Shown here piece after piece: positions 39,604-43,818 of a DNA stretch of 60,290 nucleotides. Each line of letters starts with the position of its first letter. The first letter of the stretch is position 1. The DNA is from Campylobacterota bacterium. Lineage in GTDB: Bacteria > Campylobacterota > Campylobacteria > Campylobacterales > Nitratiruptoraceae. The translations under genes were made by a program, and so were the position numbers. The stretch is taken from the NCBI GenBank assembly GCA_013153715.1, contig JAADDW010000006.1:1-60290 (forward strand), given 5' to 3'. The notes beneath the pieces are model-generated. The model ran no database searches and was not told where the DNA came from. It saw nothing but the letters and a program-made list of their open reading frames with translations.

Positions 39604-40521
39604 GTGACAATAAGAGAGGCCTTTAAAGATTTCTACAGAAACTTCCCCCGCCACCAGATAGAGAGGGCCATTGAATTCTTCGCCTGTTTCGGAGGAGGAG
39701 AGCCCCTCTTCATTCCCGATACCTCCCAAGATCTTATCGACAATCTGACCCGACTTTTTGAGTCCTATAGTGAGATCAAACCCCTCATCTCCGTGGAGAA
39801 CGAGCACCTCCTCTCGGCCTTCGCTACAGGGGATAGACGGATCGAGAGCACTATCAGGAAGAGCTTCCTTTCGGAAGCCCAAGGCTATGCCGCCCTCTCC
39901 CAGCTCATTGAGGGGAGCTACATTCGGAAGGTCTTGAGCAGGGAGAGACTCCCTAAAAAGGAGGCCAAGAGGAGGCTCAAAAAGGAGCTGAGGCGGTACC
40001 GTATCCAGCATAAGGTCGCCTTCACCAGACCCTTTTACCGCTTCTGGTACCGCTACATCTACCCCAACGAAGAGCTCCTCCTCAATGGGGAGGGGGATCT
40101 CCTCCTCTCCATCGTTTTGGACGATCTGGACAACTTTGTCAGTCTCCTCTTCGAGGAGCTCTCCAACGAGCTCCTCCAGGAGCGGTTTGGTCGCTCCCTC
40201 TCCAGCGGGAGCTACTGGGATCGGAAGGTGGAGATCGACATCTACATGGAGCTCCCCAACGGGGAGAGTCTTGTGGGAGAGTGCAAGTGGAAGAACTCCA
40301 AAATCTGCAAACAGACCCTCAACTCCTTGAAGAAGAGGGCGGCCATTGCCGGAATTGAACCGACCTACTACGCCCTCTTCTCCAAGAGCGGCTTCTCCAA
40401 TGAGCTCCTCAAAATGGGGGATAGGAACCTCCTCCTCTTCGATCTGGAGGATTTCAAAGAGTGGAGTGAGGAGACCGTCTATCGGAAGAGGGAGAAGCGG
40501 CCCTACTCCTTTGAGTTCTAG
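39604..40521 (+). CDS. DUF234-type protein with a PD-(D/E)xK nuclease motif and no ATPase domain
   Basis: 305 residues. The first half has a winged-helix-like region (QGYAALSQLIEGSYIRKVLSRE) leading to YRFWYRYIYPNEELL, the hallmark of DUF234, normally the C-terminal part of archaeal-type ATPases. The P-loop half is missing. The C-terminus carries WDRKVEIDIYMELPNGESLVGECKWKNSKI, with the Asp and E-x-K of a PD-(D/E)xK nuclease intact. The start is a GTG with GGAG directly adjacent, so the initiation site is weakly supported. It ends 7 bp before the FNR-type palindrome. Function unknown; possibly a remnant of a mobile or defence-type gene. Confidence 0.65.
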   Translation: MTIREAFKDFYRNFPRHQIERAIEFFACFGGGEPLFIPDTSQDLIDNLTRLFESYSEIKPLISVENEHLLSAFATGDRRIESTIRKSFLSEAQGYAALSQLIEGSYIRKVLSRERLPKKEAKRRLKKELRRYRIQHKVAFTRPFYRFWYRYIYPNEELLLNGEGDLLLSIVLDDLDNFVSLLFEELSNELLQERFGRSLSSGSYWDRKVEIDIYMELPNGESLVGECKWKNSKICKQTLNSLKKRAAIAGIEPTYYALFSKSGFSNELLKMGDRNLLLFDLEDFKEWSEETVYRKREKRPYSFEF

Positions 40522-40527
40522 GAAGAC

Positions 40528-40541
40528 TTGATCTAGATCAA
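40528..40541. promoter_or_regulatory. FNR/NNR-type operator
   Basis: TTGATCTAGATCAA is a perfect match to the FNR-family consensus TTGAT-N4-ATCAA. Its centre (40534.5) lies exactly 41.5 bp upstream of 40576, the start site expected from the -10 element TACAAT at 40564-40569. This is the classic class II activator arrangement. Sites of this kind bind oxygen sensors (FNR) or nitric-oxide sensors (NNR/DNR). Confidence 0.85.
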
Positions 40542-40563
40542 TGACAGAGGGGGGCCGTTGACC

Positions 40564-40569
40564 TACAAT
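40564..40569 (+). promoter_or_regulatory. -10 element of the FNR-type promoter
   Basis: TACAAT, 22 bases after the FNR-type palindrome and 36 bases before the first ATG of the operon. Spacing fits a class II FNR-dependent promoter with a start near 40576. Confidence 0.65.
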
Positions 40570-40605
40570 TAGGAGAAATTTTATCTTAATTATCTGGAGG
40601 TTCCT

Positions 40606-40953
40606 ATGGTAGAGATTCCACACGATGCCCAGACCGTCCCTGTTGAAGGGGCTACAGTTGAGTTCAAGAGGTTCGAGAAGGATGGGGTGACCTACTACGC
40701 CTTCGATACCTCCCGGTGCGGCCCTCCCGAGCCCATGGTCAATGCCATGGCCGGACTCAAGCTGATCAAGGGTCCCGAGACTAAGTTGATTATGATCAAC
40801 CACAAAACCCCCATGGGGCTCCTCAACAAGATCGGGGAGAACTACGAGATCCAGAAGGAGGAGCTCCCCGACGGTCGGGTAGAGCTGATCTTCAGTTACA
40901 AACCTGGAGCCAGTGAGAAGGCCGATCTCACCGACTCCCACTGCCACGGCTAG
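40606..40953 (+). CDS. DUF2249 (TusA-like fold) protein with a Cys/His tail
   Basis: 115 residues. The core FDTSRCGPPEPMVNAMAGLKLI ... LIMINHKTPMGLLNKIGENYEI is a DUF2249 signature, a fold related to the sulfur carrier TusA, whose RCPEP active-site Cys is here echoed by RCGPPEP. The C-terminus ends DSHCHG, a possible metal-binding tail. DUF2249 proteins often occur with nitrogen-oxide or Fe-S repair genes. It is the first gene of the FNR-type operon, with GGAGG before the ATG. Only 15 bp separate it from the membrane protein. The biochemical role is unknown. Confidence 0.8.
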   Translation: MVEIPHDAQTVPVEGATVEFKRFEKDGVTYYAFDTSRCGPPEPMVNAMAGLKLIKGPETKLIMINHKTPMGLLNKIGENYEIQKEELPDGRVELIFSYKPGASEKADLTDSHCHG

Positions 40954-40968
40954 AAGGAGGGGGAGGGG

Positions 40969-42204
40969 ATGTTCAATATTTCCAAGGAGTTCGCTCCACC
41001 ATTCAGACTGATCGCCCCCTTTTTCATTACGGGGGTGGCCTTCTACCTCCTGGCCTCTGCCGCTCTCCTCTTCTATCCCGCAACATTCCACTACGGAGAG
41101 CTCTCTGTCGCCGGTTGGGTCCACCTCTTCCTGGTGGGCTATGTGATGATGGTCATCTTCGGAGCTATGGCCCAGCTGGTCCCCGTGGTGGTGGAGAGCG
41201 GCCACTTCAGCGTTGACTGGTACTACCTCATCTTCCCCCTCCTCCTGGGAGGAACGGTCACTCTCATTCTCGGCTTCTGGTTCAATCCGATCCTCCTGGG
41301 CTTCGGGGGACTCCTGGTCCTCTCAGCCATGGTCATCTTCGCCGTTGAGGTCCTCCTCACCATCAGGAGGAGTCATCTCGACTCCTTGACGGTCAAGGCT
41401 GTCAAAGTCTCCAATATCTTCCTCCTCATCGGAATTGTGACAGGCTTCCTCATGGCCCTCACCCTCAGCGGTCTCCTGGGGATAGATGTGGAGGCTATGG
41501 TGCGGGTCCACCTATTTGCGGTCCTCGGGGGGTACATTATGATCACCATCTTCGGGATCAGCATGGTCCTCCTCCCCATGTTCGGCCTGGCCCACGGCTT
41601 TGACGAGGGACCGGTCAAGGGAGCCTTCAGACTGATGGTGGTGGCTGTCACAATCGCCCTCCTCTCCCCCCTAGGGGGAAATTTCCTCTTCCTCGTCGCC
41701 TTCCAGCTCTCCCTCCTGGCTGTCGCCCTCTACCTCTACCAGATCGCCCTCATCTACCGGACCAGGGTGAGGAGGGAGACGGAGGTCTGGTACCTCTCCA
41801 TGGTGGCCGGCTACAGCTTCCTCGCCCTTGCCCTCCTCCTGGGATTCCTGGTCCTCTTGAGTGGTGGGGAGCTCAACCTGGTCTATGCCATGGTCTGGGC
41901 CCTCTTCGCCTTCTTCGCCTTCCTCATCAACGGCCACCTCTACAAGATTGTCCCCTTTCTGGTCTGGTTCCACAGGTTCAGCCCCCTTGTCGGGAAGCGG
42001 AAGGTACCGATGCTCCATGAGATGTATCCCAAGAGGGGGGCCGCCATGGAGTTCTGGTTCTCCCTCATCGGCTCCCTCCTGGTGGAGTTGGGTCTCCTCA
42101 TAGAGAGCACCACAGCCCTCCGGGCCGGAGCCAGCTTCCTTCTGGTGGGGGCCATCTTCCTCGCCACCTCCCTCAAATTTATGCTCATGTTCAAGGAGTC
42201 TTGA
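40969..42204 (+). CDS. Polytopic membrane protein resembling NnrS or heme-copper oxidase subunit I
   Basis: 411 residues with about 11-12 membrane helices. Histidines fall in or near helices: H52 (GWVHLFLVGY), H181 (RVHLFAVLGGY), H209 (FGLAHGF), H323 (NGHLYKIVPF) and H335 (VWFHRFSPL). They suggest heme or copper binding, as in NnrS or the oxidase subunit I superfamily. The full set of oxidase ligands is not recognisable. It is likely an inner-membrane metalloprotein acting in nitric-oxide or low-oxygen metabolism, but this is inferred from the FNR-type promoter and neighbours. It ends with a 1-base overlap (TGATG) with the MIP18-type gene. Confidence 0.75.
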   Translation: MFNISKEFAPPFRLIAPFFITGVAFYLLASAALLFYPATFHYGELSVAGWVHLFLVGYVMMVIFGAMAQLVPVVVESGHFSVDWYYLIFPLLLGGTVTLILGFWFNPILLGFGGLLVLSAMVIFAVEVLLTIRRSHLDSLTVKAVKVSNIFLLIGIVTGFLMALTLSGLLGIDVEAMVRVHLFAVLGGYIMITIFGISMVLLPMFGLAHGFDEGPVKGAFRLMVVAVTIALLSPLGGNFLFLVAFQLSLLAVALYLYQIALIYRTRVRRETEVWYLSMVAGYSFLALALLLGFLVLLSGGELNLVYAMVWALFAFFAFLINGHLYKIVPFLVWFHRFSPLVGKRKVPMLHEMYPKRGAAMEFWFSLIGSLLVELGLLIESTTALRAGASFLLVGAIFLATSLKFMLMFKES

Positions 42205-42512
42205 TGGCTAAAGTGACAGAAGAACAGGTTTACGACGCAATACGGACCGTCATCGATCCGGAAGTGGGCTTCAATCTCGTCGATATGGGGCTCATCTACG
42301 GCGTCGACATTGATGATGAGAACAATGTCCATGTCAAGATGACCCTCTCCACCCGAGGGTGTCCCCTCCACCAGATGATGCAACAGTGGGTTAAGGAGGC
42401 GGTAGAGCGGATCCCCGATGTGAAGGAGGCGACGGTAGAGATTGTCTGGGATCCCCCCTGGAACATCTCCATGGCCAGCGATGTGGTCAAAAAGGCCCTC
42501 GGTGCTGGCTGA
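42204..42512 (+). CDS. MIP18-family (DUF59) Fe-S cluster assembly protein
   Basis: 102 residues, one DUF59 domain. IDPEVGFNLVDMGLIYGVDIDDENNVHVKMTLSTRGCPLHQMM carries the conserved Asp-Pro-Glu opening and the Cys of the TxxxCP loop, and EIVWDPPWNISMAS closes the fold. Relatives (SufT, PaaD, the N-domain of Mrp) help deliver Fe-S clusters. Start ATG 42204 is coupled to the upstream stop. The operon context suggests it matures a metal centre of the neighbouring proteins. Confidence 0.88.
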   Translation: MAKVTEEQVYDAIRTVIDPEVGFNLVDMGLIYGVDIDDENNVHVKMTLSTRGCPLHQMMQQWVKEAVERIPDVKEATVEIVWDPPWNISMASDVVKKALGAG

Positions 42513-42732
42513 GATAAAGAGGGAGCTCCGCCACCTCTACGGAGCCGGGATCCTCTTCTTCTACTATATGAAATACCCGATCCTCATAGGGTTGCCCATA
42601 CTCTACAATTTCTACGACTATCCGAGGAATATCTACCTCGATATTCTCTGGCTCTGGTCGGCCGGATTGGTCATCAAAGATGGCGTTGTCCTATTTCTGA
42701 GATGGAAGAGGGGAGAGAAGCTATGGAGATAA
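42502..42732 (+). CDS. Small membrane protein of the FNR-type operon
   Basis: 76 residues, starting with GTG at 42502 behind AAGG. The sequence LAEIKRELRHLYGAGILFFYYMKYPILIGLPILYNFYDYPRNIYLDILWLWSAGLVIKDGVVLFL gives one or two membrane helices, with a basic end (RWKRGEKLWR). It overlaps the MIP18 gene by 11 bp and the next gene by 10 bp, so it is embedded in the operon. I do not recognise a family. Its start is not certain, since an ATG-initiated frame also reaches upstream. Confidence 0.65.
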   Translation: MLAEIKRELRHLYGAGILFFYYMKYPILIGLPILYNFYDYPRNIYLDILWLWSAGLVIKDGVVLFLRWKRGEKLWR

Positions 42733-43223
42733 AACTGGATACGAAGATCTACGATCTTCTCAAGGAGTACCCCTTTCTGGAAGATGAACTCATCAAGATC
42801 AACCCCAAATTTAAGAAGTTGAAGAACCCCGTACTCCGCCGGACGGTGACGAGGATCGCCTCCATCAGACAGGCGGCCCGGGTAGGGGGAATGGACCCCA
42901 TCGATCTCCTCAACAGAGTTCGGGAGAAGGTGGGACAGCCCCCCCTTCAGATGGAACTGGAAGGGGAGGAGGAGAGACCTGCACCGGAGTGGATTACCCG
43001 GGAACCTGTGGCGATCCTCGATGCCGACGAGCTCCTGGAGAAGGGGGAGAACCCTCTCACCCGTATCACCAAGCTCCTCCGGGAGATGGAAGAGGGAGAT
43101 GTTCTCCTCCTCCTCAGCAGTTTTAGACCGGAACCCCTCATCGGAGAGATGGAGAAGAGGGGATTTCCGGTCTACAGCAGTGAGGCCGAGGGGCGCCACT
43201 ACACCTATATTCTCAAGAAATAG
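42723..43223 (+). CDS. DUF1858-DUF2249 fusion protein
   Basis: 166 residues. The N-terminal domain (about 1-75: KIYDLLKEYPFLEDELIKINPKFKKLKNPVLRRTVTRIASIRQAARVGGMDPIDLLNRVREKVGQ) is DUF1858-like, as at the N-terminus of the Fe-S repair protein RIC/ScdA. A linker leads to a DUF2249 domain (about 95-166: PVAILDADELLEKGENPLTRI...FRPEPLIGEMEKRGFPVYS). Both domains recur near nitrogen-oxide stress genes. It is the last gene of the FNR-type operon. Its 3' end overlaps the convergent FmdE-like gene by 11 bp. The ATG at 42723 has GGGGAGAG upstream. Confidence 0.82.
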   Translation: MEIKLDTKIYDLLKEYPFLEDELIKINPKFKKLKNPVLRRTVTRIASIRQAARVGGMDPIDLLNRVREKVGQPPLQMELEGEEERPAPEWITREPVAILDADELLEKGENPLTRITKLLREMEEGDVLLLLSSFRPEPLIGEMEKRGFPVYSSEAEGRHYTYILKK

Positions 43224-43818
43224 TGACGAGGCGGTCCCAGAGCTCCCTATTGAGGAGGATCTTGGCTACCCGCTCCTGCCAGAGGCGGCGGAACTCCTTG
43301 ATCTCCTCCTCTCCACCCCTTCCCTGTTGGAGGGCGGCCATGAGCTCCCTCATGGCGGGATCGGGAGGGACTGGGGAAGGATCGTAGGAGAGGGTAACAC
43401 TCCTCCCTGTGGTGAGGGACCTCAACCCCACCTCCCCCTTCAGCTCCTCCACCCCGTAGTGGAGCTTGTTGGCCCTGCTGAACCTCCCTCCGATCCCTTT
43501 GAAGCCGGCCTCATCATTGACACCGCAGATGAAGGCTATGAGGGTTCCGATCACTCCATTGACCCCCTCCCCCTTTCTCCCTCTGATGAGGACCTCTATC
43601 TCCCCCCGAACGGGGAGCTCCTCTCCAAAGAGCTCCTGGAGCCCCATCTTGGCCATGAGATAGGCTCCCGCCACAGTGGGGCAGGAGTGGCCTGCCAATT
43701 TGACACAGTCGAGGTAGGTTATCTCGACAATTCCACTCTCTAGGGCCCCCAGAAACTCTGCCAAGGGGTCATAGAGGAGGATTGAGGGAACCTGGTCGAA
43801 AAAGTCTGGATAGGTCAT
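43213..43818 (-). CDS. FmdE-family protein
   Basis: 201 residues. The FmdE core motif is KLAGHSCPTVAGAYLMAKMGL (GHxCP), followed by a region with GVNGVIGTLIAFICGVNDEAG, where conserved Cys and Asp could bind metal. FmdE was named for a subunit of molybdenum formylmethanofuran dehydrogenase in methanogens, but bacterial homologues lack that enzyme and their role is unknown. No such dehydrogenase is nearby. The start overlaps the dus stop by 4 bp, so it closes the minus-strand run. It converges with the DUF1858-DUF2249 gene. Confidence 0.8.
   Translation of the reverse strand: MTYPDFFDQVPSILLYDPLAEFLGALESGIVEITYLDCVKLAGHSCPTVAGAYLMAKMGLQELFGEELPVRGEIEVLIRGRKGEGVNGVIGTLIAFICGVNDEAGFKGIGGRFSRANKLHYGVEELKGEVGLRSLTTGRSVTLSYDPSPVPPDPAMRELMAALQQGRGGEEEIKEFRRLWQERVAKILLNRELWDRLVTIS

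Follow-up and report, generated by a model that had tools for sequence, protein, structure and literature searches.

DrpA and DrpB of Thermus thermophilus are a DUF2249 and a DUF1858-DUF2249 protein encoded beside nitrate reductase genes (PMC6282519). According to the excerpts of that paper on which we draw throughout, drpAB expression was induced by anoxia and nitrate, and in the drpAB double mutant NarG was made independently of nitrate and had about one tenth of the activity (PMC6282519). In these excerpts the authors favour nitrate sensing and mention a possible maturation role; the excerpts deal with drpAB alone, and not with the neighbouring homologues of the genes g2 and g3 described below. 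It has also been reported that a DUF1858 gene adjoining nnrR in Bradyrhizobium is strongly induced during denitrification in an NnrR-dependent manner (PMC6710368), and that denitrifying Haloferax induces DUF2249 genes (PMC11218638). The latter report cites Pei et al. 2014 for a link between DUF2249 and the heme-copper oxidase superfamily. Our literature search found no papers on DUF59 with DUF2249, on NnrS with DUF2249, or on "metal-sulfur cluster assembly factor" with denitrification.

In this study, we analysed five genes, g1 to g5, in a stretch of 60,290 nucleotides (the window), which corresponds to contig 21 of a genome of 1.5 Mb and 98% completeness; its nearest named relatives are annotated as Nitratiruptor. 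All five genes lie on the + strand. The product of g1 (40606..40953, 115 aa) is probably a divergent DUF2249-like protein with a TusA/SirA-like fold. Next to it, g2 (40969..42204) encodes a protein of 12 transmembrane helices with a heme-copper-oxidase fold, g3 (42204..42512) a DUF59/MIP18/SufT-type metal-sulfur cluster assembly protein, g4 (42502..42732) a small protein of 76 aa with hydrophobic segments, and g5 (42723..43223) a DUF1858-DUF2249 protein homologous to Thermus DrpB. The GTG at 42502 was used as the start of g4 and the ATG at 42723 as that of g5, the ATG at 42702 being conceivable as well. With these starts, g1 and g2 are separated by 15 bp, g2 overlaps g3 by 1 bp, g3 overlaps g4 by 11 bp, and g4 overlaps g5 by 10 bp; the coordinates confirmed the 15-bp or overlapping junctions described in an earlier sequence-only reading of this DNA. 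A gene for a DUF234 protein (39604-40521, +) lies on the same strand 5' of the operon.

A match to g2 was found in all 22 genomes searched in the Nitratiruptor family. The search for the five-gene order in other genomes, which the earlier reading had proposed, found it conserved: g1-g5 was intact in 19 of these 22 genomes, the remaining three loci being cut by contig ends, and Hydrogenimonas loci carried g1-g5 or nearly so. Sulfurovum and other Campylobacterota mostly had g1-g2-g3 alone. Since g1-g2-g3 recurs without g4-g5 across Campylobacterota, these three genes probably form the core of the operon, and g4-g5 may have been gained or lost by lineage.

The FNR/NNR-type operator TTGATCTAGATCAA occupies 40528..40541 (no strand assigned), and its centre at 40534.5 is at -41.5 relative to a predicted +1 at 40576, which is implied by the -10 hexamer TACAAT (40564..40569, + strand). 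The placement of the palindrome given in the sequence-only reading was thus correct. The perfect TTGAT-N4-ATCAA palindrome occurs in six copies in the whole 1.5 Mb genome, two of them in the window. When 94 distinct upstream regions were compared, the operator was perfect in 51 and had one mismatch in 30, so that 81 of 94 had at most one; the base-shuffled expectation was 0.08 perfect and 2.4 one-mismatch sites. In these regions the operator centre was mostly 59-69 bp 5' of the start codon, and a -10-like hexamer began exactly 29 nt past the centre in 53 of the 94, the same spacing as in the window. The conservation of the operator over the shuffled expectation, together with the fixed -10 spacing, strongly supports a predicted CRP/FNR-family class II promoter in front of g1. 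The class II geometry proposed earlier is borne out by these data, and the conserved gene order and operator speak for a genuine operon of five genes. The second perfect palindrome of the window, at 40786-40799, was rejected as a regulatory site because it lies inside the g1 coding sequence and has mostly two mismatches in the relatives, indicating a coincidence. A further perfect FNR-type palindrome was observed in the nap-nor island (L168 12483-12496), 5' of a porin-like gene.

The genomic surroundings of the operon were then compared. In close relatives the operon stands at the head of a nap-nor-nir island. In a complete Nitratiruptor-family relative (G001), it is followed in turn by a convergent FmdE-like gene, by napA with its accessory genes, by a gene of the CRP/FNR type, and by norC-norB and nirS-like genes. 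Across Campylobacterota, g1-g2-g3 is often directly upstream of napA. Where the operon and napA were on one contig, they were within 11 kb of each other in 23 of 37 genomes. Of the 61 named loci with room downstream, 39 had napA there on the same strand; siroheme/heme d1 genes were present in about 40% of the loci with room upstream. In the genome to which the window belongs, operon and nap are separate: napA is on another contig and has other genes upstream. The corresponding island genes of this genome were typed as napA, napG, napH and nirJ-like, a CRP/FNR-type gene lies inside its nap-nor island, and the genome has normal norBC. In the window, an FmdE-like gene (43213-43818, -) is convergent with g5, and it may belong to the island since the same neighbour stands between the operon and napA in the complete relative.

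Co-occurrence was examined in 150 genomes of the order, using presence lists that we compiled. In raw counts that ignore kinship, cytochrome cd1-type genes were present in 55 of 68 genomes with g2 compared to 8 of 82 without it, and norB in 51 of 68 compared to 9 of 82. As 13 genomes with g2 had no cd1-type gene, g2 does not belong strictly to denitrifiers. The check for norB had been suggested in the earlier reading, and its outcome agrees with the proposed link to nitrogen-oxide metabolism. That reading had also suggested a redox or nitric-oxide system, of which the nitrogen-oxide link stands; the context found here is that of nitrate/nitrite respiration rather than of redox functions or NO stress in general.

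Related gene sets were found in other phyla. Thermus plasmids carry nar, drpA, drpB, a gene for a 144-aa COX1-like protein, protoglobin, a g2 homologue and a DUF59 gene. Sinorhizobium B11 has nor, hemN, DUF2249, a g2 homologue, a protein with two DUF2249 stretches, DUF59, NnrS, nirK and a CRP/FNR gene, and the haloarchaeon Haloprofundus has nirK, three DUF2249 genes and a g2 homologue. The Thermus 144-aa protein, which adjoins drpB (L149 10521-10955), matched weakly to the last quarter of COX1 and is possibly a four-helix single-unit oxidase homologue.

The AlphaFold model of g2 had a mean pLDDT of 87.6 and the 12-helix fold of the catalytic subunit of the heme-copper oxidase superfamily. Its 27 best Foldseek matches were all heme-copper oxidases or NO reductases, with E-values down to 2.8e-5 and TM-scores up to 0.75, and nothing else was matched with confidence. 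Family scans gave no match for g2 itself, its sequence found nothing relevant among solved structures, and a profile comparison with NorB was not significant, the alignments being shallow. A haloarchaeal relative scored above the COX1 Pfam cut-off, best across its residues 22-105, which ties the g2 family to this superfamily by sequence too. Catalytic heme-copper oxidases and NO reductases have six conserved histidines (two hemes, CuB/FeB), and this full set was not conserved in g2. Across four phyla only H52 in TM2 and H181 in TM6 were invariant, H79, H209 and H323 were conserved in closer relatives only, and the canonical copper/FeB ligands (HH of TM7, HxH of TM10) were absent. As only two histidines are conserved across the four phyla, the simplest reading gives g2 a single heme and leaves it without a canonical copper centre. 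A likely heme in the membrane protein agrees with the earlier reading, which had proposed to look for one.

The earlier reading had called this membrane protein NnrS-like. However, the NnrS profile (PF05940) gave no match to g2 at E<=1, the hhalign comparison of the two profiles had a probability of 3.6%, which is not significant, and a true NnrS is encoded elsewhere in the genome (216 bits). We therefore rejected membership of the NnrS family; g2 belongs among the heme-copper-oxidase homologues, at a greater distance. A g2 paralogue is encoded on contig 27 of the same genome (L002 811-2676), with a hemerythrin-like gene and a further short gene ahead of it, and the match at the corresponding place in a relative (G003) was above the NnrS Pfam cut-off. 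A third COX1-family protein besides CcoN and NorB (L138 1429-3063) was below all NCBIfam cut-offs.

Among the other proteins, g3 matched DUF59 (PF01883) at 4.3e-21, above the cut-off, and was below the cut-offs of the SUF-associated protein, SufT and PaaD models. It was 39% identical to the Thermus DUF59 protein over 97 aligned positions. The Fe-S or metal-cluster flavour that the earlier reading gave to the gene set is upheld by g3, in which C53 is invariant. In g5, DUF1858 was confirmed and DUF2249 was just below the Pfam cut-off. As in DrpB, DUF1858 is followed by DUF2249, here in one copy, near nitrate-respiration genes; g5 was 34% identical to Thermus DrpB over 161 aligned positions, and among 72,556 plasmid records it matched Thermus DrpB only. 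The match of g1 to DUF2249 (PF10006) was far below the Pfam cut-off (E=0.068), and that of the Aliarcobacter g1 was likewise below it (E=6e-5). The g1 model resembled SirA (3hz7; TM 0.75 to the target, rmsd 2.1, weak E-value), C113 at the C-terminus and H66 were invariant, and C38, in a TusA-like position, was nearly so. Thus the domain calls made from the sequence alone hold for DUF59 in g3 and DUF1858 in g5, whereas those for DUF2249 did not reach the cut-off. No family match was found for g4 in the family scans, and a PHROGs search of g1 and g4 returned nothing.

We are highly confident that this is an accessory operon of nitrate/nitrite respiration with a CRP/FNR-type promoter and an oxidase-fold protein in g2. 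More tentatively, and with somewhat less than an even chance, we propose a maturation or protection mechanism around a single-heme membrane protein; for the identity, the context and this mechanism taken jointly, we consider the chances to be evenly balanced. A CRP/FNR-type regulator would switch the operon on in response to falling oxygen in the presence of nitrogen oxides. g2 would carry one heme b, held between TM2 and TM6 close to the periplasmic side; without the usual copper site it may be a redox- or NO-responsive heme protein and not an oxidase. Cytosolic g3 would deliver metal-sulfur clusters in cooperation with g2, the TusA-fold proteins g1 and g5 would act with these two, and the four may mature or protect Fe-S/Mo/heme nitrogen-oxide reductases during exposure to nitrite and NO. 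It is a speculative idea, with the chances clearly against it, that across phyla a single-heme g2 without a canonical copper site acts in the membrane, together with a carrier of metal-sulfur clusters and two proteins of the TusA fold, in loading or repairing the cofactors of nitrogen-oxide reductases when NO is present. If true, this would be a maturation pathway so far undescribed.

The operon could instead work in sensing as proposed for Thermus DrpAB, with g2 and g1 sensing nitrate, nitrite or NO at the membrane and g5 signalling to denitrification regulators. In favour of this, g5 is a DrpB homologue, and drpAB deletion freed NarG expression from nitrate in the excerpts cited above (PMC6282519). 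However, NarG of the double mutant was also largely inactive, and family scans of the five proteins revealed neither a DNA-binding nor a phosphorelay domain. DUF59 would have no obvious place in such a scheme, and the reductases to which the operon's relatives are linked differ between phyla. The NarG that is kept in the Thermus mutants at about one tenth of its activity points to maturation. Because the module contains a cluster-assembly protein and goes with different reductases in different phyla, we prefer, with moderate confidence, a role in maturing or protecting reductases to one in sensing, and regard sensing as unlikely.

Other explanations concern the role of g2 itself. With its heme-copper-oxidase/NO reductase fold and its usual place close to nitrogen-oxide genes, g2 may be an enzyme that consumes or detoxifies NO and a pared-down relative of nitric oxide reductase; NnrS, also a heme-copper-oxidase homologue, is linked to NO stress, which counts for this explanation. 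The lack of the canonical copper/FeB ligands, with H52 and H181 alone invariant across phyla, and the normal norBC in the same genome argue against an enzyme of this kind, which we consider quite improbable. As a membrane protein with a likely single heme b encoded upstream of napAGH, g2 might also transfer electrons from quinol to a periplasmic partner and feed Nap or a maturation step. NapGH of the island already serve this, however, and g2 is conserved beside Nar and NirK too, so electron transfer seems very unlikely. Maturation or protection around g2 is the reading that we prefer.

As the same unexplained set of proteins goes with nitrate/nitrite respiration in at least four phyla, textbook accounts of denitrification may still lack a shared step. 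In Thermus, the Drp proteins, for which nitrate sensing is at present proposed, may belong to a larger module that includes a membrane heme protein and a factor for cluster assembly. This would explain, in a way open to testing, why the nitrate reductase of drpAB mutants is poorly active.

HCOH proteins, credited to Pei et al. 2014, are reportedly 12-TM heme-copper-oxidase homologues with two conserved histidines, and would share with g2 the fold, the 12 helices, the two histidines and the denitrification context. With NnrS (PF05940), a membrane heme protein of nitrogen-oxide metabolism, g2 would have a distant kinship of fold. Compared with MIP18/SufT DUF59 proteins, g3 is a clear DUF59 member, yet outside the narrower models. 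The closest likeness is to Thermus, where DUF2249 and DUF1858-DUF2249 proteins likewise stand beside nitrate reductase genes and homologues of g2 and g3 lie just downstream of drpAB. The differences are that DrpB carries two DUF2249 domains and g5 one, that the gene order of the drp locus differs from that of the window operon, and that g1 is only remotely like DrpA, with no significant BLAST match. The earlier statement that no system with this gene set had been described was therefore too strong. Judged from these comparisons of sequence, the operon is a relative of a half-described Thermus system, composed of the Drp proteins and a heme-copper-oxidase homologue, and is not wholly new.
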